Source of the DNA: Methylobacterium tardum
GTDB lineage: Bacteria; Pseudomonadota; Alphaproteobacteria; Rhizobiales; Beijerinckiaceae
Length of the DNA stretch: 64,000 nt
Direction: 5' to 3'
NCBI RefSeq assembly: GCF_023546765.1
Contig: NZ_CP097484.1
Coordinates: 4,062,001-4,126,000, forward strand
Part shown: positions 50,951-64,000 of the stretch, piece after piece
Layout: each line of letters starts with the position of its first letter
Numbering within the stretch: position 1 is the stretch's first letter
Notes under the pieces: model-generated
Database searches by the model: none
The model's input: only the letters and a program-made list of their open reading frames with translations
What the model was told of the DNA's origin: nothing
Translations under genes and position numbers: made by a program

Positions 50951-51871
50951 TCAGTCCTGCAGGTGCCGCGCGGCGATGATCGAGGCGGCGGTGCGATTCT
51001 CGACACCGAGCTTGGCGTAGATGCCCTCGAGGTGCTTCGTCACCGTCCGGTGGCTCAGCCCCAGGATCTCGCCGATGTCGCGGCTCGACTTGCCCCGGGA
51101 TAGCCAGAGCAGAACCTCGGCCTCACGGCCGGTGACGGGGAGCTTCGCGCGCAGCCGCTCGATCCCGGAGGCCGGCTCCTCCCGGGACAGGCGAAGCAGG
51201 ATCTCGTCCGGTGTGCCCCCGATGAAGCTCAGGGCGTAGGCCGCGCCGTCGGGATCGGTCAGGGTCAGGGTGGTGCCGACCGCCCCGGCCAGATGCGCGC
51301 CCAGCCAGTCGCGGGCGCGCGCCGGCAGTTCGAGCGTGCCCGAGCGCTGGACGCCGAGGCTGCTCAGAAGCCGGCCGGCCTGCGGCGTCGACCACAGAAC
51401 CCGCCCGTCCGCCGAGACGGCGAACAGGGTCCGGCCGGCGGTGTCGAGGGCGGCCCGGGCACTCTGCGCGGCGCGGGCGCTCGCGAGGTGCACGCGGATC
51501 CGGGCCAGGATCTCGTCGGGGGCGATCGGCTTCGTGACGTAGTCGATCCCGCCGGCGGAGAGCCCCTTCACGATGTGCTCGGTCTCGCTGAGCCCGGTCA
51601 TGAAGATCACCGGCACACCGGCGAGATGCGGCTTGGCCTTGAGCCGCCGGCAGGTCTCGAACCCGTCGAGGCCGGGCATCACCGCGTCGAGCAGGATTAC
51701 GTCCGGCGTGATCTCGTCCACCAGGGTCAGGGCGAGGTCGCCGCCGACCGCGACTAGCACGGTCGCGCCGGACCGCTCGATTGCCTCGGTGAGGAAGCTC
51801 AGCGTGTCGGGCGAATCGTCGATCACCAGGACGATGTCCCGGTGCGGCTGGACCTTCGGCGCCTCAGTCAT
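50951..51871 (-). CDS. LuxR/NarL-type response regulator
   Basis: A 306-residue regulator. The receiver domain (1-130) has LVIDDSPDTLSFL and phosphoacceptor Asp62 in VILLDAVMPGLDG, with KPIAPDE for the lysine. A middle part (about 140-230) looks PAS-like (TLFAVSADGRVLWSTPQAGRLL). The LuxR helix-turn-helix is LTGREAEVLLWLSRGKSSRDIGEILGLSHRTVTKHLEGIYAKLGV. The gene overlaps the end of the permease-kinase gene by eight bases, so the two form a transcription unit and very likely a phosphorelay. Confidence 0.9.
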   Translation of the reverse strand: MTEAPKVQPHRDIVLVIDDSPDTLSFLTEAIERSGATVLVAVGGDLALTLVDEITPDVILLDAVMPGLDGFETCRRLKAKPHLAGVPVIFMTGLSETEHIVKGLSAGGIDYVTKPIAPDEILARIRVHLASARAAQSARAALDTAGRTLFAVSADGRVLWSTPQAGRLLSSLGVQRSGTLELPARARDWLGAHLAGAVGTTLTLTDPDGAAYALSFIGGTPDEILLRLSREEPASGIERLRAKLPVTGREAEVLLWLSRGKSSRDIGEILGLSHRTVTKHLEGIYAKLGVENRTAASIIAARHLQD

Positions 51872-54800
51872 GGCGGGCGAGTTCCTGCAGGACCGAGAGA
51901 TAGCGGCGAAGGTCGTACCCTTCGACCAGCCCGCGCATCCGGGCGACGAAGGCGGGCGGCACAGTCGCGTCCGCCTCCATCTGGGTCAGCTTGGCCTCGA
52001 TGGCGCGGATATGCCCGATCCGGCCGAGGCGCAGGAGCTCGCCGATATGCTCGGGCCCGGGCCCTGGGAGATCCGCCGCGGCCGGGACGGGCTCCGACCG
52101 CGCCGGCGCGGCGCCCTCGGTCCATTCGAGGTGCAGGAGCTTGCCGATCCGCTCCATCACGTCGCGCAGGTCGAAGGGCTTGGCGAAGATCGCGTCGTGG
52201 GGGGCGTCGTCGCCGCGGGTCGGGCTGATCTCGTGGACGTTGGCGGACATCATGGCGATCGGGCCGGTATGCCCGGCCTGCCGCAAAGCCGCCGCCGCCG
52301 CCCAGCCGCTCATCCCGGGCATCGCGATGTCGAGGAGGACGAGGTCGACGCCGCCCTGCGCGACCATCGCGAGGCACTCGGCTCCCGACCCGGCCTCCCG
52401 CACGGAGATGCCCTGCGGCTCCAGGATCGCCCGCATCAAGGCGCGATGGGCACTGTCGTCGTCGGCCACCAGGACGGTGCGGCGCGCGCCCCCATAGGCC
52501 CGCTCCGGGGCCGGCACCGGCGCGGGCGCGATGATCGGCGCGGGCTGGGCCACGGAGGCCAGCATCAGGCGCAGCCGCGCCTGCGTGCCGCCGCCAGGGG
52601 CGGCGGTGACGGTGATCTCGCCGCCCAGCAGCTGCGCCAGCAGGTTGGCGATGGTGAGCCCGAGCCCCGTCCCCGGCGTGCTCCGGGCGGCCGGGGTCGA
52701 GCCGCGCTCGAAGGGCTCGAAGACCCGCGCGAGGTCCGCCTCCGGGATGCCGGGGCCGGTGTCGCGGATCGTGAACACCGCGATCTGGCTCCGGTAGCTG
52801 AGGTCCAGCGACACGGTGCCGGCTTCCGTGAACTTGATGGCGTTCGACAGCAGGTTGAGCAGCACCTGCCGCAAGCGCTTCTCGTCGGTGGCGACCACCG
52901 CCGGCAGGATCTCGGGCCTTGAGAACCGGAACTCCAGTCCGGCCTCCCGCGCCTGGAGGCGGACCATGTCGACCAGTTGGTCCAGGAAGTCGGTCAGCCG
53001 GACCTCGTCGCGGTGGATCTGGAGGCGCCCGGCCTCCATGCGCGAGATGTCGAGGAGGCCGTCGATCAGTCCCGACAAGTGCTGGGCGCTGCGCCGGATC
53101 ACCCGCAGGCCGTTGAGGCGATGCGCCGGGATCGCGGGGTCGGATTCGAGGAGCTGGGCGTAGCCGAGCACGGTCGAGAGCGGCGTGCGCAGCTCGTGGC
53201 TGATCCCGACCACGTACCGGCTCTTGGCCTGGTTGGCGGCTTCGGCCCGCTCCTTGGCCTCCTGCAGCTTGGCGTCGGTGACTTTATGGGCGGCGATCTC
53301 GGCCTGGTAGAGCGCGGTCTGGCGCATCGTCTCGGCCTGGGCGACGCGCCGGCTCTCCTGGGCGAGCACGAACAGCCACGCCACCACGCCGAGGATCACC
53401 ACCAGGGTGTAGAACACGCTGGTCAGCGCGGTGCGCAGGAACGCGCGATTCTCCGGGTGGGCGATCGTCGCGCCGGCGTGCACGATGCCGAGGATCAGCC
53501 CGATCACCGCGCAGAGCGTCAGCATCACCGCGAGATAGCGGCCCAGCGGCGCGCCGATCCAGGCGGCGGTGCGGCCCGGCAGGATCCGCGCGACGGCGGC
53601 CTGCGCCTGCACGTCCAGGCGTCCGTGGGGCTTGCACAGGTCGCCGCAACGGGCGTCGAGCGAGCAGCAGAGGGAGCAGATCGGCGCGTCGTAGGCCGGG
53701 CAATGGGCCATGTCCTCGCCCTCGAAGGGCAGTTCGCAGACCCGGCAGACCACCTCGGCCGCGCCCCAATCCTGCTTCGGGACCCGCGCCAGATACCAGC
53801 GCCCCGCAGTCGCCCAGGCGATCGCCGGGGCGGCGCAGAACGCGATCGCCAGGGTGAGCAGCGGCGCGAAGGGCTGCAGGGTCGCGCCGAGCCAGCCGAC
53901 ATAGGCCGCGCCCCCGGCCGCGAGGGCCAGCGCCATGGCGCCGGTCCCCACCGGGTTCACCGCGTAGAGATGGGCGCGCTTGAACTCGATGCCCGGGGGC
54001 GAGAGGCCGAGCGGCTTGTTGACGGCGAGGTCGGCGGCCAGCGCCCCGACCCAGGCCGAGACCACGGAGGCGTAGAGCGGCAGGGTGCTCTCGATGGTCT
54101 TGTCGATGCCGAGCTCCATCAGGAGCACCGCGATGGCGACGTTGAACACGAGCCAGACCACCCGCCCCGGATGGCTGTGGGTCAGGCGCGAGAAGAAGTT
54201 GGACCACGCGATCGAGCCGGCATAGGCGTTGGTCAGGTTGATCTTGAGCTGCGACACGAGGACGAACAGCCCGGTGAGCAGCAGGGCCGCCCGGCTCCCC
54301 TCCCCCGTCAGGTAGCCGAACGCCACCGCGTACATGCGGGTCGGCTCGGCGGCGTGCTCGGCCGGGACGCCGTGGCCCAGCGCCAGGACCGCCAGCGCGG
54401 CGCCGAGCAGGATCTTCAGCATCCCGGGCAGGATCCAGCCGGCGCCTCCCGACAGGACCGCCAGCCACCAGCGGCGGTCGCGCGGGCCCTGCGGCTCCGG
54501 CACGAAGCGCAGGAAGTCGACCTGCTCGCCGACTTGGGCGAGCAGCGCCAGCAGGACGCCCGTGGCGAGGCCGAACCGGGCGAGATCGAAGCCAGTCCCG
54601 CCGCCGTCGAGGCCGGGGAAGCCGGCGAGCGCCCGCAATGGCCCCGCACCCTGTGCCGCCACGAAGATCAGCGGCAGCAGGCTCAAGGCGATCCAGATCG
54701 GCTGCGTCCAGATCTGGAACCGGCTGATCAGCCGGATTCCGTAGACGACGAGGGGTATTACCGCCCCGGCACAGAGCAGATAGCCGATGCCCAGCGGCAG

Positions 54801-55238
54801 CCCGAAACAGAGCTGCAGCGCCAGCGCCATGATCGCCGCCTCGATGGCGAAGAACAGGAAGGTGAAGCTCGCGTAGATCAGCGACGTCACGGTCGAGCCG
54901 AGATAGCCGAAGCCGGCGCCCCGGGTCAGGAGGTCCATATCCACCCCGTAGCGGGCAGCGTAGACGGTGATCGGCGCGGCCGTGGCGAAGATGATCAAGC
55001 CGACGACCAGCACGGCCGCGATCGTGTTGGGAAAGCCCGCCGTCAGCGCCAGCGTCCCGCCGATCGCCTCCAGTGCCAGAAACGAGATCGAGCCGAGGGC
55101 GGTCTGCGCCACTTCGAGGCTCGACCAGCGCCGCGCCTTCTTGGCGGTGAAGCGGAGGGCGTAATCCTCCAGCGTCTCGTCGGCGACGAAGCGGTTGTAG
55201 TCCCGCCGGATGGGGATGATGCGCTGCGGCCCGCTCAT
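51864..55238 (-). CDS. NCS1 permease-type hybrid sensor histidine kinase
   Basis: A 1124-residue fusion. Residues 15-485 form a full NCS1 (nucleobase/allantoin/hydantoin-type) permease, with about twelve helices and the block ARYGVDMDLLTRGAGFGYLGS. A cysteine cluster (about 493-536: VVCRVCELPFEGEDMAHCPAYD, then CSLCCSLDARCGDLCKPHG) has nine cysteines in pairs and may bind zinc. Two more helices lead to the kinase, with SHELRTPLSTVLGYAQLLES (His about 681), NLLSNAIKF and GTGLGLTIANLL. A receiver has Asp about 970 in LVLLDIAMPGMSG. The permease part may be a sensor, a carrier or both. It diverges from urtA. Confidence 0.9.
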   Translation of the reverse strand: MSGPQRIIPIRRDYNRFVADETLEDYALRFTAKKARRWSSLEVAQTALGSISFLALEAIGGTLALTAGFPNTIAAVLVVGLIIFATAAPITVYAARYGVDMDLLTRGAGFGYLGSTVTSLIYASFTFLFFAIEAAIMALALQLCFGLPLGIGYLLCAGAVIPLVVYGIRLISRFQIWTQPIWIALSLLPLIFVAAQGAGPLRALAGFPGLDGGGTGFDLARFGLATGVLLALLAQVGEQVDFLRFVPEPQGPRDRRWWLAVLSGGAGWILPGMLKILLGAALAVLALGHGVPAEHAAEPTRMYAVAFGYLTGEGSRAALLLTGLFVLVSQLKINLTNAYAGSIAWSNFFSRLTHSHPGRVVWLVFNVAIAVLLMELGIDKTIESTLPLYASVVSAWVGALAADLAVNKPLGLSPPGIEFKRAHLYAVNPVGTGAMALALAAGGAAYVGWLGATLQPFAPLLTLAIAFCAAPAIAWATAGRWYLARVPKQDWGAAEVVCRVCELPFEGEDMAHCPAYDAPICSLCCSLDARCGDLCKPHGRLDVQAQAAVARILPGRTAAWIGAPLGRYLAVMLTLCAVIGLILGIVHAGATIAHPENRAFLRTALTSVFYTLVVILGVVAWLFVLAQESRRVAQAETMRQTALYQAEIAAHKVTDAKLQEAKERAEAANQAKSRYVVGISHELRTPLSTVLGYAQLLESDPAIPAHRLNGLRVIRRSAQHLSGLIDGLLDISRMEAGRLQIHRDEVRLTDFLDQLVDMVRLQAREAGLEFRFSRPEILPAVVATDEKRLRQVLLNLLSNAIKFTEAGTVSLDLSYRSQIAVFTIRDTGPGIPEADLARVFEPFERGSTPAARSTPGTGLGLTIANLLAQLLGGEITVTAAPGGGTQARLRLMLASVAQPAPIIAPAPVPAPERAYGGARRTVLVADDDSAHRALMRAILEPQGISVREAGSGAECLAMVAQGGVDLVLLDIAMPGMSGWAAAAALRQAGHTGPIAMMSANVHEISPTRGDDAPHDAIFAKPFDLRDVMERIGKLLHLEWTEGAAPARSEPVPAAADLPGPGPEHIGELLRLGRIGHIRAIEAKLTQMEADATVPPAFVARMRGLVEGYDLRRYLSVLQELARHD

Positions 55239-55413: not shown

Positions 55414-55431
55414 ATACGCAAAATCGCGTAT
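55414..55431. promoter_or_regulatory. Candidate operator between the kinase and urtA
   Basis: ATACGC and GCGTAT form a perfect inverted repeat around AAAATC. It lies 85 bases before the urtA start, in the shared divergent region 55239-55515. The half-sites have the style of NarL/LuxR-type targets, so the regulator encoded at 50951-51871 could bind here; this is inference. Confidence 0.4.
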
Positions 55432-55515: not shown

Positions 55516-56784
55516 ATGGCAGACGACACCGAGACCGGCGCCGATCACGGCTTGCGCTCCCCGCTGCGGCGCCGGCTGCTCATGGGGCTCGCAGGCGCCC
55601 CGGCGCTGGCGCTGATGCCGCGCACCGCCTGGGCCGCGCCGCCGACCGCTTCGGTGAACACCACCGGCCTCGCGGTGACGGACACGGAGGTGACGGTCGG
55701 CATCCTGCACTCGATCACCGGCACGATGGCGATCTCCGAGACCGGCGCGCAGGAAGCTGAGAAGCTCGCGATCCAGCAGATCAACGATGCCGGCGGCGTG
55801 CTCGGCCGCAAGATCAAGATCATCCAGGAGGACGGCGCCTCCGACTGGCCGACCTTCGCCGAGAAGGCCAAGAAGCTCCTCGTCAACGACCATTGCGCCG
55901 CCGTGATGGGCTGCTGGACCTCGGCCTCGCGCAAGGCGGTGCTGCCGGTCTTCGAGCAGTACAACGGCCTGCTCTACTACCCGACCTTCTACGAGGGCCT
56001 GGAGCAGTCGAAGAACGTCTTCTACACCGGCCAGGAGGCGACCCAGCAGATCCTCGCCGGCCTCGACTGGGTCCACAAGGAGAAGGGCGGCGACAGCTTC
56101 TACTTCATCGGCTCCGACTACATCTGGCCGCGCACTTCCAACAAGATCGCCCGCAAGCACGTGGAGAACGTGCTCAAGGGCAAGGTCGTCGGCGAGGAGT
56201 ACTTCCCCCTCGGTCACACCCAGTTCAACTCGGTGATCAACAAGATCAAGCTGACCAAGCCGAAGGTGATCTTCGCCGACGTGGTCGGCGGCTCGAATGT
56301 GGCGTTCTACAAGCAGCTCAAGGCGGCGGGCATCGACCTGTCGAAGCAGGTGCTGATGACGATCTCGGTCACCGAGGACGAGATCGACGGCATCGGCGGC
56401 GAGAACATCGCCGGGGCCTACGCCTGCATGAAGTACTTCGAGTCGATCCAGAACGACAACAACAAGGCCTTCGTCGCCGCGTTCAAGAAGATGTGGGGCG
56501 AGAAGACCGTCATCGGCGACGTGACGCAGGCGGCCTATCTCGGGCCATTCCTGTGGAAGATGGCCTGCGAGAAGGCCGGCTCGTTCGACGTCGACAAGGT
56601 GGTGGCGGCCTCGCCCGGTCTGGAATTCACGGGCGCGCCGGAAGGCTACGTGAAGATCGACCCGAACCATCACCTCTGGTCGAAGACCCGGGTGGGCCGG
56701 GCCAAGCCCGACGGCCAGTTCGAGATCGTCTACACCAGCCCCGAGCTGATCAAGCCGGATCCGTTCCCGAAGGGGTACCAGTAG
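55516..56784 (+). CDS. urtA: Urea/short-chain amide ABC transporter substrate-binding protein
   Basis: A 422-residue periplasmic binding protein of the UrtA/FmdD family. A twin-arginine-like leader (LRRRLLMGLAGAPALALMPRTAWA) precedes the family start VTVGILHSITGTMAISETG. The UrtA-type blocks DGASDWPTFAEKAKKLL and MGCWTSASRKAVLPVFEQYNGLLYYP are intact. It carries urea or small amides to UrtBC. It leads the operon but is separated from urtB by about 196 bases containing a family A repeat, which could lower expression of the membrane genes relative to the binding protein. Confidence 0.9.
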   Translation: MADDTETGADHGLRSPLRRRLLMGLAGAPALALMPRTAWAAPPTASVNTTGLAVTDTEVTVGILHSITGTMAISETGAQEAEKLAIQQINDAGGVLGRKIKIIQEDGASDWPTFAEKAKKLLVNDHCAAVMGCWTSASRKAVLPVFEQYNGLLYYPTFYEGLEQSKNVFYTGQEATQQILAGLDWVHKEKGGDSFYFIGSDYIWPRTSNKIARKHVENVLKGKVVGEEYFPLGHTQFNSVINKIKLTKPKVIFADVVGGSNVAFYKQLKAAGIDLSKQVLMTISVTEDEIDGIGGENIAGAYACMKYFESIQNDNNKAFVAAFKKMWGEKTVIGDVTQAAYLGPFLWKMACEKAGSFDVDKVVAASPGLEFTGAPEGYVKIDPNHHLWSKTRVGRAKPDGQFEIVYTSPELIKPDPFPKGYQ

Positions 56785-56980: not shown

Positions 56981-57908
56981 ATGCTCGGCGACTATTCCCT
57001 CGGCGACCTCGGCGCGATCTTTGCCATGCAGGGCTTCGCCGGCCTGATCCTGTTCTCCGTCTACCTGCTGATGGCGCTCGGCCTCGCGATCATCTTCGGC
57101 CAGATGGGCGTGATCAACATGGCCCACGGGGAGTTCATGATCCTCGGCGCCTACGTCACCTATCTCTGCTCGACCTTCTTCCAGACCTACCTGCCGGCGC
57201 TCTTCCCGATCTACTTCTTCATCGCGATGGGCACTGGCGTTCCTCGCCTCCGGGGCCCTGGGGATGCTGGTGGAATGGGGCCTGATCCGGTTCCTCTACA
57301 AGCGCCCGCTCGACACGCTGCTGGCCACCTGGGGCCTGTCGCTGATCCTCCAGCAGGCCTACCGGTCGATCTTCGGCGCCCGCGAGGTCGGCGTCGAGCT
57401 GCCGTCCTGGCTCATCGGCTCGGTGCAGGTCACCGACACGATCGAGATCCCGATCAACGGCCTGTTCGTCATGGGCGTGACGATCCTCATCACCGTCTGC
57501 GTCGCGCTGCTGATCTTCCGCTCGCGCTTCGGCCAGCAGGTGCGCGCGGTCATGTCGAACCGCGCCATGGCGGGGGCGGTGGGCATCGATACCGAGAAGG
57601 TCGACCGCTACACCTTCGGCCTCGGCTGCGGCATCGCGGGGATCGCCGGCTCGGCCTTCACGATGATCGGCTCGACCGGGCCGACCTCGGGCCAGCTCTA
57701 CATCGCCGACACCTTCCTGATCGTCGTGTTCGGCGGCGCCGCGAGCCTGCTCGGCACCATCGCGTCGGCCTTCTCGATCTCCCAGACCCAGTCGACCCTG
57801 GAGTTCTTCCTCTCCGGCTCGATGGCCAAGGTCATCACCCTGCTCGCGGTGGTCGGCATCCTGATGCTGAGGCCCCAGGGCCTCTTCACCCTCAAGGTCC
57901 GGCGCTGA
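56981..57908 (+). pseudogene. urtB: Urea/amide ABC transporter permease UrtB (one-base frameshift)
   Basis: A branched-chain-amino-acid-type permease of the UrtB group. The N-terminal helices read LFSVYLLMALGLAIIFGQMGVINMAHGEFMILGAYV. At the GGG at 57229-57231 one extra base shifts the frame; removing it gives ALAFLASGALGMLVEWGLIRFLYKR and continues to FLIVVFGGAASLLGT and LRPQGLFTLKVRR. The corrected protein is 308 residues, normal for UrtB. As read, the transporter would lack this subunit, so a base miscount is more likely. urtC follows after 13 bases. Confidence 0.87.
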
Positions 57909-57921
57909 GGATTTTTCGACC

Positions 57922-59091
57922 ATGACGAATCCGGTCCAGACCCTCACCAAATCCGTCACCGTCAACGACAACCCGTTCATGAAGCCGGTGGAGTGGCTGA
58001 GCCTTCTCCTCCTGGCCGGGGTGATCCTGGTCGTCCTGCCGCTGGTGCTCGACGGCTTCCGCCTCAACCTCGTCGGCAAGTACCTGACCTACGCCTTCGT
58101 GGCCCTCGGGCTGGTGATCTGCTGGGGCTACGCGGGGATCCTGTCGCTGGGCCAGGGCGTGTTCTTCGGCCTCGGCGGCTACTGCATGGCCATGTACCTG
58201 AAGCTTGAGGCTTCGAGCATCGAGAACACCAAGATCCAGTCCACGCCCGGCATCCCGGACTTCATGGACTGGAACCAGATCACGGCGCTGCCCTGGTTCT
58301 GGCAGCCGTTCAAGAGCCTGCCGCTGACGCTGATCCTGGCGGTCGCCGTCCCGGTCCTGTTCGCGATGCTGATCTCCTTCGCGATGTTCAAGCGCCGGGT
58401 CGGCGGCACCTACTTCGCGATCATCACCCAGGCGATCGCCGCGATCCTGACGATCCTGATCGTCGGCCAGCAGGGCTACACCGGCGGCATCAACGGCATC
58501 ACCGACCTGCGCACGCTCCACGGCTGGGACATCCGCACCGACTCGGCCAAGTTCATCCTGTACTTCGTCAACGGCGGCCTGCTGATCGCCTGCATCCTGG
58601 CGGCGCAGTACGTGAAGAAGTCGAAGCTCGGCCGCATCCTCGTCGCCATGCGCGACAAGGAGGACCGGGTCCGCTTCTCCGGCTACTCGGTGGCGGGCTT
58701 CAAGGTCTTCGCCTTCTGCTTCGCCGCCGGGCTGGCGGCGATCGGCGGAGCGATGTTCACCCTGCAGGTCGGGTTCATGTCGCCCTCCTTCGTGGGCATC
58801 GTGCCGTCGATCGAGATGGTGATCTACGCCGCGGTAGGCGGGCGCCTGTCGCTGTTCGGCGCGGTCTGGGGCACGCTGCTCGTCAACTGGGCCAAGACCA
58901 GCTTCTCGGAGAGCTTCCCCGACCTCTGGCTGTTCGGCCTCGGCGCCCTGTTCATCGCGGTGGTGCTGGCCTTCCCGAACGGCCTCGCGGGGATCTGGCG
59001 GGAGCACATCGAGCCCCGCCTCACCCGCCGCGCCAAGAGCCTGCAGGCGCCCGCGCCCGCCATCGCCCCCCACGGCGCCCCGGCCGAGTGA
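57922..59091 (+). CDS. urtC: Urea/amide ABC transporter permease UrtC
   Basis: A 389-residue polytopic permease of the UrtC/LivM type, partner of UrtB. Typical segments are ALGLVICWGYAGILSLGQGVFFGLGGYCMAMYL, GGTYFAIITQAIAAILTILIVGQQGYTGGINGI and AAVGGRLSLFGAVWGTLLVNWAKT. The glycine-rich segment after TYFAII and the long loop between the first helices are usual for UrtC. It starts 13 bases after urtB and ends seven bases before urtD. Confidence 0.93.
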   Translation: MTNPVQTLTKSVTVNDNPFMKPVEWLSLLLLAGVILVVLPLVLDGFRLNLVGKYLTYAFVALGLVICWGYAGILSLGQGVFFGLGGYCMAMYLKLEASSIENTKIQSTPGIPDFMDWNQITALPWFWQPFKSLPLTLILAVAVPVLFAMLISFAMFKRRVGGTYFAIITQAIAAILTILIVGQQGYTGGINGITDLRTLHGWDIRTDSAKFILYFVNGGLLIACILAAQYVKKSKLGRILVAMRDKEDRVRFSGYSVAGFKVFAFCFAAGLAAIGGAMFTLQVGFMSPSFVGIVPSIEMVIYAAVGGRLSLFGAVWGTLLVNWAKTSFSESFPDLWLFGLGALFIAVVLAFPNGLAGIWREHIEPRLTRRAKSLQAPAPAIAPHGAPAE

Positions 59092-59098
59092 GTCCCCC

Positions 59099-59884
59099 AT
59101 GAACGCCGCGATCCTCTCCTCCCCCGTGGTCGGCGCCGAGGCCGCCCCGCCCGACTACCTCCTCGCCGTCGAGGCGCTGACGGTCTCGTTCGACGGGTTC
59201 AAGGCAGTGAACGACGTGTCGTTCTACGTCGATCCGGACGAGATCCGGGTGATCATCGGGCCGAACGGCGCCGGCAAGACCACGGTCCTCGACCTGATCT
59301 GCGGGCGCACCCGGGCCAGCGCCGGCTCGATCAAGTACAAGGGCCAGGAGCTGACCAAGCTCTCCGAGAGCGCCATCGTGCAGGCCGGCGTCGGCCGCAA
59401 GTTCCAGACGCCGTCGATCTACGACGACCTGACGGTGTTCGAGAACCTGGAGATCTCGTTCCCCCGCGGCCGCTCGGTCTTCGGCGCCCTCACGTTCAAG
59501 CGGGACGCGGAGGTCCGCGACCGCATCCACGCCATCGCCGAGACGATCTTCCTGAAGGACCAGCTCCGGGAGCGGGCCGAGTTCCTGAGCCACGGCCAGA
59601 AGCAGTGGCTGGAGATCGGCATGCTGCTGATCCAGGACCCGGAGCTGCTGATGCTCGACGAGCCGGTGGCCGGGATGAGCGTCGGCGAGCGGATCAAGAC
59701 CGCCGAGCTGCTCAACCAGATCATCAAGGGCCGCTCGGTGCTGGTGATCGAGCACGACATGAAGTTCGTCGAGGACATCGCCCACCGGGTGACCGTCCTG
59801 CACCAGGGCAAGGTGCTCTCCGAGGGTTCGATGGAGCGGGTCAAGAACGACCCGAAGGTCATCGAAGTGTATCTGGGACATTGA
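59099..59884 (+). CDS. urtD: Urea/amide ABC transporter ATP-binding protein UrtD
   Basis: A 261-residue LivG-type ATPase. Walker A is IIGPNGAGKTTVLDLICG, the signature is LSHGQKQWLEIGMLLIQ (SHGQ, as in UrtD), and Walker B is LLMLDEPVAGMSVGE. The H-loop His is in VIEHDMKFVEDIA. It pairs with UrtE to drive uptake. It begins seven bases after the urtC stop and ends two bases before urtE. Confidence 0.93.
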   Translation: MNAAILSSPVVGAEAAPPDYLLAVEALTVSFDGFKAVNDVSFYVDPDEIRVIIGPNGAGKTTVLDLICGRTRASAGSIKYKGQELTKLSESAIVQAGVGRKFQTPSIYDDLTVFENLEISFPRGRSVFGALTFKRDAEVRDRIHAIAETIFLKDQLRERAEFLSHGQKQWLEIGMLLIQDPELLMLDEPVAGMSVGERIKTAELLNQIIKGRSVLVIEHDMKFVEDIAHRVTVLHQGKVLSEGSMERVKNDPKVIEVYLGH

Positions 59885-59886
59885 CG

Positions 59887-60651
59887 ATGGCCTCGCTCCA
59901 GACCGCGCACGCGACCCCCGTCCAGGCGCCCCCGCTCGCCGCGATCCCGTCCGCCACGCCGGCGCTCGCCGTCGACGACCTGCACGCCGCCTACGGCCAG
60001 AGCGAGGTCCTGCACGGGCTGACCTTCTCGGTGGCGCCCGGCGAGATCGTCGCCGTGATGGGCCGCAACGGCATGGGCAAGACCACGCTCATGAAGACCC
60101 TGATGGGCCTCGTGCCGGTCAAGGCCGGCTCGATCCAGGTCGAGGGCGCGGACGTCGCCGGGCTGAAGAGCCACGCCCGGGTCGCCAAGGGCCTCGCCTA
60201 CGTGCCGCAGGGCCGGATGATCTTCTCGACCATGACGGTCCAGGAGAACATCGAGACCGGCCTGACGGTCACCGGCGCCCGCAAGGTGCCGCAGGATCTC
60301 TACGACATGTTCCCGGTCCTCCTGGAGATGAAGGGACGGCGCGGCGGCAACCTCTCGGGCGGCCAGCAGCAGCAGCTCGCCATCGCCCGGGCGCTGGCGA
60401 GCCGGCCGAAGGTCCTGCTCCTCGACGAGCCCACCGAGGGCATCCAGCCCTCGATCATCCGCGAGATGGGCCGGACGCTGAAGGCGATCCGCGACCAGCG
60501 CGGCCTCTCCATCGTGGTGTCCGAGCAGGTCCTGAGCTTCGCCCTCGACGTCGCCGACCGGGTGATCGTGATGGAGAACGGCGCCATCGTCCACGAGGCC
60601 CCGCGCGACGGGATCGGCGAGGCCGCCGTCGCCCGCTTCCTGTCGGTCTAG
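59887..60651 (+). CDS. urtE: Urea/amide ABC transporter ATP-binding protein UrtE
   Basis: A 254-residue LivF-type ATPase. Walker A is VMGRNGMGKTTLMKTLMGLV, the UrtE-like YVPQGRMIFSTMTVQENIETGL follows, the signature is LSGGQQQQLAIARALA, and Walker B is VLLLDEPTEGIQPS. ATG 59887 is chosen because it lies two bases after the urtD stop. The first 25 residues are an alanine/proline-rich extension. Confidence 0.93.
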   Translation: MASLQTAHATPVQAPPLAAIPSATPALAVDDLHAAYGQSEVLHGLTFSVAPGEIVAVMGRNGMGKTTLMKTLMGLVPVKAGSIQVEGADVAGLKSHARVAKGLAYVPQGRMIFSTMTVQENIETGLTVTGARKVPQDLYDMFPVLLEMKGRRGGNLSGGQQQQLAIARALASRPKVLLLDEPTEGIQPSIIREMGRTLKAIRDQRGLSIVVSEQVLSFALDVADRVIVMENGAIVHEAPRDGIGEAAVARFLSV

Positions 60652-60661
60652 GGGCGCGCGC

Positions 60662-61681
60662 ATGGCCGATTACGAGATCTTCGAACTCGGCGACTTCGTG
60701 CTCCAGTGCGGCAAGACGCTGCGCGCGGCCAAACTCGCCTTCAAGACCTTCGGGACGCTGAGCCCGGCCAAGGACAACGCCATCGTCTACCCGACCTGGT
60801 ATTCGGGCCAGCACACCGAGAACGAGTGGCTGATCGGCCCCGGCAAGGCGCTCGACCCGGATAAGTACTTCATCATCATCCCGAACATGTTCGGCAACGG
60901 GCTCTCGTCCTCGCCGAGCAACACGCCCGCGCCCTGGAACGGGCCGCGCTTCCCCAACGTCACCGCCTACGACAACGTCCGCGCCCAGCACCGCCTCGTC
61001 ACCGAGCATTTCGGCATCGAGAAGCTGGTCCTCGTCACCGGCTGGTCGATGGGCGCGCTCCAGACCTATCACTGGGCGTCGATGTACCCCGACATGGTGC
61101 CGAAGATCCTGCCGTTTCAGGGCTCGGCCAAGTGCTCCCGGCACAACTACGTCTTCCTGGAAGGCGCCAAGGCGGCGCTGCAGGCCGACGCCGCCTGGGC
61201 GGAGGGCTGGTACACGAGCCCGCCGACCCGGGGCCTGCGCGCCTTCGGCCGGGTCTACGCCGGCTGGGGCCTGTCGCAGACCTTCTACCGGCTCGAGGCC
61301 GACATCACCCACATGGGCTACGCCTCGCTGGAGGACTTCCTGATCGGGTTCTGGGAAGGCCTGTTCTACGAGCGCGACGCCAACAACCTGCTCGCCATGC
61401 TGTGGACGTGGCAGCACGGCGACATCAGCGCGAACGACACCTTCAAGGGCGACTTCAAGGCCGCGCTCGGCGCCATCCGCGCCAGGGCGATCCTGATGCC
61501 CGCCTCGACCGACCTGTATTTCCCGCCCGAGGACAACGCCATCGAGGCGGCCGCCATGCCGAACGCGGAGCTGCGCGTGATCGACACGTGGTGGGGCCAC
61601 TTCGCGGGCGGGCCCGGCACCAGCCCGGACGACATCAAGGTCCTCGACGACGCGCTGAAAGAGCTGCTCGCGAGCGGGTGA
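60662..61681 (+). CDS. Alpha/beta hydrolase, homoserine O-acetyltransferase-like
   Basis: A 339-residue alpha/beta hydrolase close to the MetX family. The nucleophile elbow is VTGWSMGALQTYHWA, and the late ASTDLYFPPEDN and WWGHFAGGPG blocks supply Asp and His for a triad. The MetX-like start FKTFGTLSPAKDNAIVYPTWYSG is present, but the sulfur-pathway genes are absent. Between urtE (ten bases away) and fmdA it is likely an amide- or ester-cleaving enzyme of this pathway; that is inference. Confidence 0.82.
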   Translation: MADYEIFELGDFVLQCGKTLRAAKLAFKTFGTLSPAKDNAIVYPTWYSGQHTENEWLIGPGKALDPDKYFIIIPNMFGNGLSSSPSNTPAPWNGPRFPNVTAYDNVRAQHRLVTEHFGIEKLVLVTGWSMGALQTYHWASMYPDMVPKILPFQGSAKCSRHNYVFLEGAKAALQADAAWAEGWYTSPPTRGLRAFGRVYAGWGLSQTFYRLEADITHMGYASLEDFLIGFWEGLFYERDANNLLAMLWTWQHGDISANDTFKGDFKAALGAIRARAILMPASTDLYFPPEDNAIEAAAMPNAELRVIDTWWGHFAGGPGTSPDDIKVLDDALKELLASG

Positions 61682-61744: not shown

Positions 61745-62974
61745 ATGCCCGAGACGCTGATCAAGGTCGATCTCACGCAATCGGCCTACGACAACGACAT
61801 GGTGCACAACCGCTGGCACCCCGACATCCCGATGGTCGCCTACGTGAAGCCGGGCGCGGACTTCATCGTCGAGACCTACGACTGGACCGGCGGCCTCATC
61901 AAGAACAACGATTCCGCCGACGACGTGCGCGACATCGACCTGTCGATCGTGCACTTCCTCTCGGGACCGATCGGCGTCGAGGGCGCCGAGCCCGGCGACC
62001 TTCTGGTGGTCGACCTCCTCGACATCGGCGCCAAGCCCGAGAGCCAGTGGGGCTTCAACGGCTTCTTCTCCAAGAAGAACGGCGGCGGCTTCCTCACCGA
62101 GCACTTCCCGCAGGCCCAGAAGTCGATCTGGGACTTCGAGGGCATGTTCACCAAGTCCCGCCACGTCCCGGGCGTGCGCTTCCCGGGCCTGATCCATCCC
62201 GGCCTGATCGGCTGCCTGCCCGATCCCAAGATGCTGGAGACCTGGAACACCCGCGAGAAGGCGCTCTACGACACCAACCCGGAGCGCGTGCCGGCGCTCG
62301 CCACCCTGCCCTTCGGCCCGACCGCCCATATGGGGCGGCTCAAGGGCGACGCGAAGGACGCGGCCGCCGCCACCGGCGCCCGCACCGTCCCGCCCCGCGA
62401 GCACGGCGGCAATTGCGACATCAAGGATCTGTCGCGCGGCTCGAAGATCTACTTCCCGGTCTACGTGCCCGGCGCCGGCCTCTCCATGGGCGACCTGCAC
62501 TTCAGCCAGGGCGACGGCGAGATCACCTTCTGCGGCGCCATCGAGATGGCCGGCTGGGTGCACCTCAAGGTCGAGCTGATCAAGGACGGCATGGCCAAGT
62601 ACGGGATCAAGAACCCGATCTTCAAGCCGTCGCCGATCACGCCGAAATACGACGATCACCTGATCTTCGAGGGCATCTCGGTCGACGAGAGCGGCGGCCA
62701 GCACTACCTCGACGTCCACATCGCCTACCGGCAGGCCTGCCTGAACGCGATCGAGTATCTCAAGAAGTTCGGCTACTCGGGCGCGCAGGCCTACTCGATC
62801 CTCGGCACGGCGCCGGTCCAGGGCCACATCTCGGGCGTCGCCGACATCCCGAATGCCTGCGCGACGCTCTGGATACCGACCAAGATCTTCGAGTTCGACA
62901 TCAATCCCGGCGCCGACGGACCGACCAAGTTCCTCGACGGCTCGATCCAGATGCCGCTCTCGCCGGACCTCTGA
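61745..62974 (+). CDS. fmdA: Formamidase (acetamidase/formamidase family)
   Basis: FmdA hydrolyses formamide to formate and ammonia. The 409-residue enzyme is of the acetamidase/formamidase (FmdA_AmdA) family: HNRWHPDIPMVAYVKPG, FPGLIHPGLIGCLPDP, PPREHGGNCDIKDLSRGSKI and GDLHFSQGDGEITFCGAIEM are its conserved blocks and include the metal and active-site residues. Length and full-length match fit Methylophilus FmdA. The urt genes upstream and fmdB downstream recreate the fmd layout known from that methylotroph, where amide uptake and formamidase are encoded together. Confidence 0.95.
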   Translation: MPETLIKVDLTQSAYDNDMVHNRWHPDIPMVAYVKPGADFIVETYDWTGGLIKNNDSADDVRDIDLSIVHFLSGPIGVEGAEPGDLLVVDLLDIGAKPESQWGFNGFFSKKNGGGFLTEHFPQAQKSIWDFEGMFTKSRHVPGVRFPGLIHPGLIGCLPDPKMLETWNTREKALYDTNPERVPALATLPFGPTAHMGRLKGDAKDAAAATGARTVPPREHGGNCDIKDLSRGSKIYFPVYVPGAGLSMGDLHFSQGDGEITFCGAIEMAGWVHLKVELIKDGMAKYGIKNPIFKPSPITPKYDDHLIFEGISVDESGGQHYLDVHIAYRQACLNAIEYLKKFGYSGAQAYSILGTAPVQGHISGVADIPNACATLWIPTKIFEFDINPGADGPTKFLDGSIQMPLSPDL

Positions 62975-63238: not shown

Positions 63239-63556
63239 ATGCCCGTCTACGACTACGCCTGCGAGGCCTGCGGCCCGTTCACGGTGATGCGGCCGATGGC
63301 CGAGTTCCGCGATCCGCACGCCTGCCCCGATTGCGGCGGGACGAGTCAGCGGGCTTTCCTCACCGCGCCGCGCATCGCCGGCATGGATGCGGGCCTCAGA
63401 ACCGCCCACGCCACCAACGAGCGCAGCCGCCACGCGCCCAAGCGCTCGGGCAGTCACGGGTCGGGCTGCGGCTGCTGCTCACCCAAGAAGGTGACCACCG
63501 CCCCGGCCGCCGCCAAGAGCTTCCCGAAGGCGCGGCCCTGGATGATCAGCCACTGA
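63239..63556 (+). CDS. fmdB: FmdB family zinc-ribbon protein
   Basis: A 105-residue protein whose first 45 residues are the FmdB zinc ribbon: MPVYDYACEACGPFTVM, then HACPDCGGTSQRAF, with two CxxC pairs. The C-terminus has a second cysteine cluster (GSGCGCCSPKK) and ends PWMISH. FmdB was first seen as a regulator-like gene beside formamidase in Methylophilus; its activity is not well known. ATG 63239 is used because it starts the zinc ribbon. The gene stands between two inverted copies of repeat family B. Confidence 0.9.
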   Translation: MPVYDYACEACGPFTVMRPMAEFRDPHACPDCGGTSQRAFLTAPRIAGMDAGLRTAHATNERSRHAPKRSGSHGSGCGCCSPKKVTTAPAAAKSFPKARPWMISH

Positions 63557-63739: not shown

Positions 63740-64000
63740 ATGATGCACGGAGACATCTCGTCCAGCCAGGACAGCGTCGGCGTCGCCGTCGTGAACTACA
63801 AGATGCCGCGCCTGCACACCCGCGCGGAGGTGCTGGAGAACGCCAAGGCGATCGGCAAGATGATCGTCGGGATGAAGACCGGCCTGCCCGGCCTCGACCT
63901 CGTGATCTTCCCCGAATACTCAACCCACGGCATCATGTACGACGCCGCCGAGATGTACGAGACCGCCTCGACGGTCCCGGGCGCGGAGACCGAGGTGTTC
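63740..64000 (+). CDS. amiE: Aliphatic amidase (N-terminal part, cut by the window end)
   Basis: AmiE hydrolyses short aliphatic amides such as acetamide and propionamide to the acid and ammonia. The 87 visible residues match the amidase start: [20 protein letters not shown], then [23 protein letters not shown]. Glu59 in FPEYS falls at the exact number of the catalytic Glu59 of Pseudomonas AmiE; the lysine and cysteine lie beyond the edge. AmiF formamidase is a close relative. AGGAGG lies ten bases before the ATG; ATG 63743 is possible too. Confidence 0.88.

Follow-up and report, generated by a model that had tools for sequence, protein, structure and literature searches.

We describe here a gene in a 64,000-nucleotide stretch of the Methylobacterium tardum genome (contig NZ_CP097484.1, positions 4,062,001 to 4,126,000; hereafter the window) that encodes a hybrid sensor kinase whose N-terminal domain has the fold of NCS1 transporters. 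Urt and Fmd proteins serve the import of urea and amides, and the kinase gene, with that of its partner LuxR-type regulator, lies beside urt and fmd genes. We propose that the pair is probably a two-component sensor of urea or short amides, in which the NCS1-fold domain acts as the receptor and which drives urt transcription. The evidence is computational and comes from the architecture and fold of the kinase, the pairing of the two genes, their neighborhood and a conserved site before urtA.

Domain architecture of the sensor kinase

The protein combines the following elements in one frame.

51864..55238, minus strand: hybrid sensor kinase, 1,124 aa, ATG start, with NCS1-fold domain, cysteine module, two membrane helices, HisKA, HATPase_c and receiver
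53784..55238, minus strand: NCS1-fold domain, residues 1–485 (fold comparison)
53634..53747, minus strand: eight-cysteine module, residues 498–535, CxxC-x11-C-x7-C-x2-CC-x5-C-x3-C, probably zinc-binding
53370..53540, minus strand: two extra transmembrane helices, residues 567–587 and 607–623, leading to the kinase (hydropathy; helices in the predicted model)
53028..53225, minus strand: HisKA, residues 672–737, phospho-acceptor His681 (Pfam)
52560..52889, minus strand: HATPase_c, residues 784–893 (Pfam)
52146..52475, minus strand: receiver, residues 922–1031, Asp970 (Pfam)

The HisKA domain with its histidine, the HATPase_c domain and the receiver with its aspartate define a hybrid histidine kinase. 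An earlier note on the window had read a permease, a cysteine cluster, a kinase and a receiver from this single frame, with a histidine near residue 681 and an aspartate near 970, and our searches confirm the architecture and find both residues at those positions within the Pfam HisKA and receiver matches. Between residues 485 and 671, no Pfam domain was found at E ≤ 1, and no dedicated STAC model was run. Two short members of the family, L130 (885 aa) and L133 (894 aa), have no receiver match and form a separate supported branch on the domain tree. In Methylobacterium oryzae CBMB20, the corresponding entry (P0163) is a 460-aa permease that covers just 65% of the NCS1 part, which suggests that in this strain the gene is broken or its call is wrong.

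Genomic neighborhood of the fusion family

Our main sample of 398 Pseudomonadota genomes contains 57 fusion loci, distributed over 52 genomes, and 55 of these loci adjoin urt, urease or fmdA genes. The remaining two, both retained among the 57, are L149, with a urtA fragment at the end of its contig (10.9 kb), and L137, whose contig (4.8 kb) is too short to judge. Whether urt and fmd genes recur beside homologs was a check named in the earlier note, and its outcome is strongly positive. The urt genes of the window's clade occur together with fmdA at 36 loci that have no urease genes in the stretch; nine loci carry another urt clade, five of them with urease genes in the stretch; eight have urease and no full urtA in the stretch; and two, those of the short members L130 and L133, have fmdA alone. 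Among the eight, L120, L129 and L132 have other urt genes, L127 has the start of urtA, and L119, L134, L135 and L136 have urease only. Overall, urease genes adjoin 13 of the 57 loci. UrtA of the second clade is ≈37 to 42% identical to that of the window, with an example from L061 scoring above the TIGR03407 cut-off, and examples of UreC, UreA, UreB and UreG were confirmed by family models.

A separate set of 80 loci from close relatives, mostly Methylobacterium, includes some species that apparently repeat in the main sample (e.g. L032 and L142). A UrtA match is present at 78 of them, as a fragment at L065, and is absent from L031 (a 3.8-kb contig) and L047. Of the 398 genomes, 172 have UrtA (E ≤ 1e-60) and 144 have UreC (E ≤ 1e-100), so both systems are often present in genomes that lack the fusion.

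In a tree of the NCS1 domain built with IQ-TREE, 62 of the 66 rows are labeled as fmd-linked (41) or urease-linked (21); L120 was counted in the urease group, though fmdA sits just beyond its stretch. By parsimony, the label changes at least five times, twice at points forced by well-supported branches, compared with 17.8 changes in shuffles, and finer four-way labels on the same tree change seven times. The label thus tracks descent yet has switched more than once, the association having re-formed. Such repeated switching argues for a substrate that urt, urease and fmd share, namely urea or a short amide. The extended stretch before the L120 kinase (L241, G360:C11:400000-416400) holds fmdA, urtABCDE and urease together.

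The partner regulator combines a receiver with a GerE helix-turn-helix, as LuxR/NarL-type regulators do. The two genes overlap by 8 nucleotides, that of the regulator starting inside the end of that of the kinase. The regulator is matched on the kinase's strand at 55 of the 57 sampled loci; at L135 it appears 2.5 kb away since the kinase match there is partial. In the close-relative set, it is matched outside the kinase at 78 of 80 loci, the stretches of L031 and L079 ending too early. Neither L130 nor L133 has the LuxR regulator; both have fmdA nearby, and L130 also has an OmpR-type regulator in its vicinity. In the window, the run from urtA to amiE is divergent from the kinase gene.

50951..51871, minus strand: LuxR/GerE-type response regulator, 306 aa (PF00072, 92.4 bits; PF00196, 54.2 bits)
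55516..56784, plus strand: urtA (TIGR03407, 544.8 bits, above cut-off)
56981..57908, plus strand: urtB, two frames in this record (TIGR03409, above cut-off for 57264–57908)
57922..59091, plus strand: urtC (TIGR03408, 439.7 bits)
59099..59884, plus strand: urtD (TIGR03411, 372.1 bits)
59875..60651, plus strand: urtE (TIGR03410, 331.8 bits)
60662..61681, plus strand: alpha/beta hydrolase, PRK07581 family (NF005757, 559.6 bits)
61745..62974, plus strand: fmdA, formamidase (NF045496, 759.8 bits)
63239..63556, plus strand: small zinc-ribbon protein, which we take to be FmdB-like (open reading frame)
63740..64000, plus strand: start of amiE (aliphatic amidase), which runs past the end of the window (open reading frame; the gene at the matching place in the relative L001 is NF009802, 711 bits)

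The urtB gene is read up to residue ≈141 in one frame and over residues 142–365 in another, with the break near position 57232, and in L001 it is a single frame of 365 aa. The break is either a sequencing error or a real frameshift.

A palindrome before urtA

The intergenic region between the kinase gene and urtA contains a candidate site for the regulator.

55414..55431, plus strand: palindrome ATACGCAAAATCGCGTAT (TACG-N8-CGTA), candidate regulator site, 84 bp before the urtA start

The 45 urt-linked loci of the main sample provide an independent count: within 300 bp before urtA, the core is exact at 35 and present with at most one mismatch at 40, compared with 4 and 21, respectively, of 836 random stretches. 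At the other five (L115, L117, L123, L128, and L166), these 300 bp contain no site even with one mismatch; at L123 and L128, a core with one mismatch precedes the kinase instead. None of 20 urtA upstream regions from fusion-free genomes (801 bp each) contains the exact core. A partly redundant set shows the core at most 500 bp upstream of the kinase at 102 of 137 loci. Site density is 1.58 per kb in the 500 bp upstream of the kinase and 0.0084 per kb elsewhere. From the site to the projected urtA start, the median distance is 86 bp for the urt-fmd clade, where 96 of 103 loci have a site, and 90 bp for the second urt clade, where 15 of 19 do. The 137- and 122-locus palindrome counts are not independent, and more weight should be given to the counts over 57 and 45 loci. 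When kinase and urtA are kilobases apart (L064, L066, L070, L073, and L112), it is urtA that the site accompanies. Of 42 distinct sites, 34 have complementary bases at the inner pair 6/13, 20 at 7/12, and 18 at 8/11. The window's own 6.9-Mb genome has ATACGY-N6-RCGTAT and TACGC-N6-GCGTA once each, at this locus, and no TACGTC-N4-GACGTA; a two-mismatch pattern is not unusual within the 64-kb window alone.

The same site accompanies urtA in the urease group, even where urtA lies outside the locus. The exact core precedes urtA in 6 of 6 further genomes, ≈10 kb from the kinase in G158, G142, and G366 and ≈40, 100, and 245 kb from it in G389, G019, and G379, respectively, and four of these six sites have the form TACGCC-N4-GGCGTA. 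All four genomes with a urease-only kinase locus (L119, L134, L135, and L136) have a site before a distant urtA, counting L234 (G225), where urtA is ≈60 kb from the kinase and the core is possibly a true site. The urt genes or urtA start at four of the urease loci, together with the palindrome before their urtA, strengthen the link to urt. Upstream of the kinase itself, the urease group has no exact site within 700 bp and no palindrome common to all nine loci. We consider it very likely that urt is the target of the regulator, as the earlier note had proposed; the palindrome conserved upstream of urtA supports this, and the regulator would bind there.

Several other arrangements were seen. GCGCT-N4-AGCGC lies before the kinase at four of the nine urease-group loci (L119, L122, L135, and L136), possibly as a second site or by chance. 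Two TACG-N8-CGTA sites lie 22 bp apart before the kinase at L160, L161, L163, and L164, each with one further site ≈5.3 to 5.6 kb away, and L241 has an exact palindrome ≈1.3 kb before fmdA.

The NCS1-fold domain and its pocket

Pfam and PDB sequence searches failed to recognize the NCS1 part, with no PF02133 match in the window protein at E ≤ 1, so the assignment was made by fold comparison. The best structural matches of the modeled N-terminal domain are CodB and Mhp1, which share a LeuT-type core. The nearest stand-alone relative in the sample, a protein from L138 with 31% identity, does match PF02133 (3.6e-9) and, below its cut-off, TIGR00800. Because PF02133 is absent here yet matched by this relative, we limit the claim to a predicted NCS1 fold on a divergent branch. 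The complete NCS1 permease that the earlier note placed at residues ≈15 to 485 stands as a predicted fold; it has no PF02133 match, and a lysine occupies the place of its sodium-site threonine.

We mapped the pocket on a MAFFT alignment with Escherichia coli CodB and AllW (≈18% identity) and counted conservation over 65 rows. Glu57, Glu133, Gln235, Glu238, Gln239, Lys332, and Asn334 are each invariant (65/65), with Glu57 falling on transmembrane helix 1 (TM1), Gln235, Glu238, and Gln239 at the TM6 break, and Asn334 on TM8; L138 was left out for the TM6 residues, as it is gapped there. In CodB, Thr278 and Thr279 of TM8 are described as coordinating sodium (PMC9379551). The equivalent residues are Lys332 in 65/65 rows and Ile333 in 64/65, so this Na2-site Ser/Thr pair is not kept in the fusion alignment, and L138 has Arg-Ile there. 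Because the invariant Lys332 takes the place of a sodium-site threonine, the domain is probably not a sodium symporter. Glu133, which is also Glu in L138, occupies the position of Mhp1 Gln121, a residue reported to hydrogen-bond hydantoin (PMC4195764); this placement uses the distance of four residues from the preceding Trp117/Trp108 position, with the Mhp1 sequence itself outside the alignment. CodB Phe204, an aromatic residue of TM6 against which the base stacks, is replaced by Val, Ile, Met, or Leu in 64/65 rows, and Trp108 by Phe (53 rows) or Leu (12 rows). The pair R244–Y339 (CodB R216–Y285) and Gly49 of TM1 are conserved in 64 to 65 of 65 rows. The substitutions relative to CodB and Mhp1 would most naturally imply a small polar ligand, bound with neither ring stacking nor sodium coupling.

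On balance, we lean toward a receptor that does not transport. The domain might instead be a transceptor that carries urea or an amide, perhaps driven by protons, while the kinase reads transport or occupancy, as with CbrA. Retention of the core helices, of R244–Y339 and of Gly49 would fit such a protein, and CbrA is reported to transport L-histidine despite its kinase fusion (PMC7096432). We nevertheless regard a transceptor as unlikely, given the Lys and Ile at the CodB Thr278/Thr279 positions, the high-affinity ABC importer that is encoded alongside in most sampled loci and would make transport redundant, and the reported loss of transport by Ks-Amt5 on its fusion to a kinase (PMC5764959).

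At the locus of the stand-alone relative (L138:8949-14828), the NCS1 transporter is accompanied by an AmiR-type protein and by an AmiC-like binding protein, which scores 225.8 bits with TIGR03407 and falls below its cut-off. The transporter is a candidate amide transporter and may be a sister of the receptor domain.

The eight-cysteine module

Cysteines 498, 501, 513, 521, 524, 525, 531, and 535, together with Asp509 and Asp533, are present in 65/65 rows. The earlier note had counted nine clustered cysteines (residues 493–536); the cluster holds, with eight conserved members. A profile of the module gives 57 strong matches (E < 1e-18) in the 398 genomes, all 57 within fusions, and two more that are marginal (6.6e-4 and 5.4e-3). 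A database-wide search, restricted to lengths near that of the query, returned 2,416 proteins, and each of the best 120 of these has at least PF02518, the ATPase domain of kinases. No Pfam family describes the module, the best match being Prok-RING_1 (E 0.013, 5/31 members). Of the profile searches that the earlier note had named, then, the zinc-binding one yielded only this weak match, that for HisKA succeeded, and that for NCS1 (PF02133) did not. Among PDB profiles, a match to ZBTB20 (E 1.9e-4) was set aside because no single stretch passes on its own, as were CRIPT and SIRT3 (E at least 0.23).

The module is predicted to form four strands and one helix, and a separate model of it (pLDDT 70.6, low confidence) has RING, FYVE, and PHD chains among its best fold matches, at E of at least 0.28. 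These features suggest a treble-clef zinc fold, and we judge it quite likely that the module binds zinc. In other NCS1 proteins, the core ends in the cytosol. If it does so here, the module would be cytosolic, and the helix pair 567–587/607–623 would return the chain to the cytosol before the kinase. Coupling of the receptor to the kinase via the cysteine module is plausible.

The module could also be the real sensor, of redox, zinc or nickel status, with the NCS1 domain a mere membrane anchor. The invariance of its cysteines and aspartates would suit that role, as would the nickel requirement reported for urease (PMC4161386), given the urease genes at 13 of the 57 loci. We find this improbable: the NCS1 pocket residues are equally invariant, although a mere anchor would have no need of them, 36 of the 57 loci are urt-fmd loci with no urease genes in the stretch, and the spacing and predicted fold look structural.

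Proposed mechanism and its alternatives

We propose that urea or a small amide, the likely ligand, binds from outside to the NCS1-fold domain, which would have retained the transporter scaffold and lost the sodium-site hydroxyls. Binding would shift the bundle/hash arrangement, and this shift may reach the kinase by way of the eight-cysteine module in the cytosol and the extra helix hairpin. The kinase would then phosphorylate the translationally coupled LuxR-type regulator, directly or through its built-in receiver, and the regulator would bind TACG-N8-CGTA and switch on urt (here urt-fmd-ami). For the ligand, the metal, the direction of regulation, DNA binding and phosphotransfer, we infer these steps from the computed features.

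Several observations weigh against this proposal. The residue mapping depends on an alignment at ≈18% identity. The earlier note had named homologs with no link to nitrogen uptake as evidence against its reading, and one of the 80 close relatives is such a homolog: L047, a Methylobacterium locus, has the kinase and regulator and no UrtA, UreC, or FmdA match in 23 kb, and is the only adequately long fusion locus seen without urt, urease or fmdA. L115, L117, and L166 are urt-linked, but the 300 bp ahead of their urtA hold no site even when one mismatch is allowed, and the four urease-only loci have no site before the kinase or the urease genes. Conversely, a one-mismatch core occurs in 4 of the 20 fusion-free urtA upstream regions (801 bp), and second urtA copies of fusion-bearing genomes have an exact core in 2 of 20 cases (L226, asymmetric; L234, symmetric). 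Finally, urt and fmd could answer nitrogen limitation instead of the substrate. As a separate observation, the L047 kinase frame looks extended upstream in a simple gene call.

Nitrogen limitation is also at the center of a further explanation, in which the pair is a general nitrogen-status system that sits beside urt or urease by chance and has an unrelated ligand. In Pseudomonas putida, a urea/amino-acid ABC transporter and urease are reported to depend on NtrBC (PMC9311074), which means that genes of this kind can be controlled by nitrogen limitation alone. The single strict palindrome in the whole genome argues instead for a one-operon regulator, and the association has formed anew with clusters of urt, urease, and fmd genes that differ in ancestry, which makes this explanation doubtful at best. 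Least probable of all is that the domain detects hydantoin, allantoin or a nucleobase, compounds that come earlier in the purine-to-urea route: although most characterized bacterial NCS1 proteins are described as taking pyrimidine or hydantoin-type rings (PMC13390362), CodB Phe204 is aliphatic in 64/65 rows, Trp108 is Phe or Leu, and no purine or hydantoin catabolic gene was found among the scanned neighbor proteins, a weak argument as most neighboring open reading frames are unannotated. Of the ligands that the earlier note had considered, urea and short amides are favored, and hydantoin and nucleobases find no support in the annotated neighbors or in the unconserved TM6 aromatic.

Beyond the urea or amide sensor proposed for the window, and more tentatively, at somewhat less than an even chance, the family may represent a widespread and undescribed class of bacterial membrane receptors for urea and short amides. 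In this reading, an NCS1 transporter scaffold became a receptor when an invariant lysine took over its sodium site, a private eight-cysteine zinc module that no other protein has would relay occupancy to the two-component pathway, and about one operon would be controlled via one palindrome.

Comparison with known systems

Urea is a major environmental and fertilizer nitrogen source, and we know of no two-component system for which urea itself has been shown to be the signal. The family comes with a predicted operator site, which makes the proposal testable by a simple reporter, and it offers a natural case for how a symporter loses ion coupling and turns into a sensor. We found no paper on an NCS1–kinase fusion in the open-access literature; subscription papers were outside this search. 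A 2026 genome paper on Ectopseudomonas guguanensis G3 (PMC13296017) describes a urtABCDE operon (operon III) adjoined by a LuxR-family two-component pair. By locus tag, fmdA is the next gene there, and a figure legend names a hybrid kinase. In the portions of that account consulted, neither an NCS1 domain nor a cysteine module, a ligand or a DNA site is mentioned.

Among NCS1 transporters, CodB and Mhp1 share the fold, and the CodB Arg/Tyr pair is kept here. The domain differs from these transporters in that it has no Pfam NCS1 match, a sodium-site Thr is replaced by Lys, the TM6 aromatic is lost and the domain is fused to a kinase. Kinship to MetT, an NCS1 metformin transporter, was considered from its description (PMC13390362) and not by sequence.

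AmiC and AmiR, a soluble binding protein and an antiterminator, control amide use. AmiC–AmiR and Fmd/Urt share a substrate class, and the L138 protein is encoded next to AmiC-like and AmiR genes; in contrast to AmiC/AmiR, the system described here would use a membrane receptor and a phosphorelay.

Transporter–kinase fusions are known with SLC5 domains (CbrA, CrbS, and RpuS) and with Amt (Ks-Amt5, PMC5764959). The SLC5/STAC kinases likewise join a transporter-fold N terminus to a kinase with a cognate regulator and are described as governing nutrient use. Here, the fold is of the NCS1 type and the putative target is urea/amide use, and the position held by the STAC domain in CrbS and RpuS appears to be taken by the eight-cysteine module and helix pair. 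Ks-Amt5 similarly uses a nutrient-transporter scaffold as a receptor joined to a histidine kinase, and is described as an Amt trimer with no typical transducer module and a regulator not yet identified (PMC5764959); our protein differs in its NCS1 fold, cysteine module, hybrid receiver and coupled LuxR-type regulator. If our proposal is correct, the cysteine module, found only in this fusion in our sample, would represent a new kind of coupling element that joins a membrane receptor to its kinase, and NCS1 would be the third transporter class, after SLC5 and Amt, to be used as a kinase receptor.

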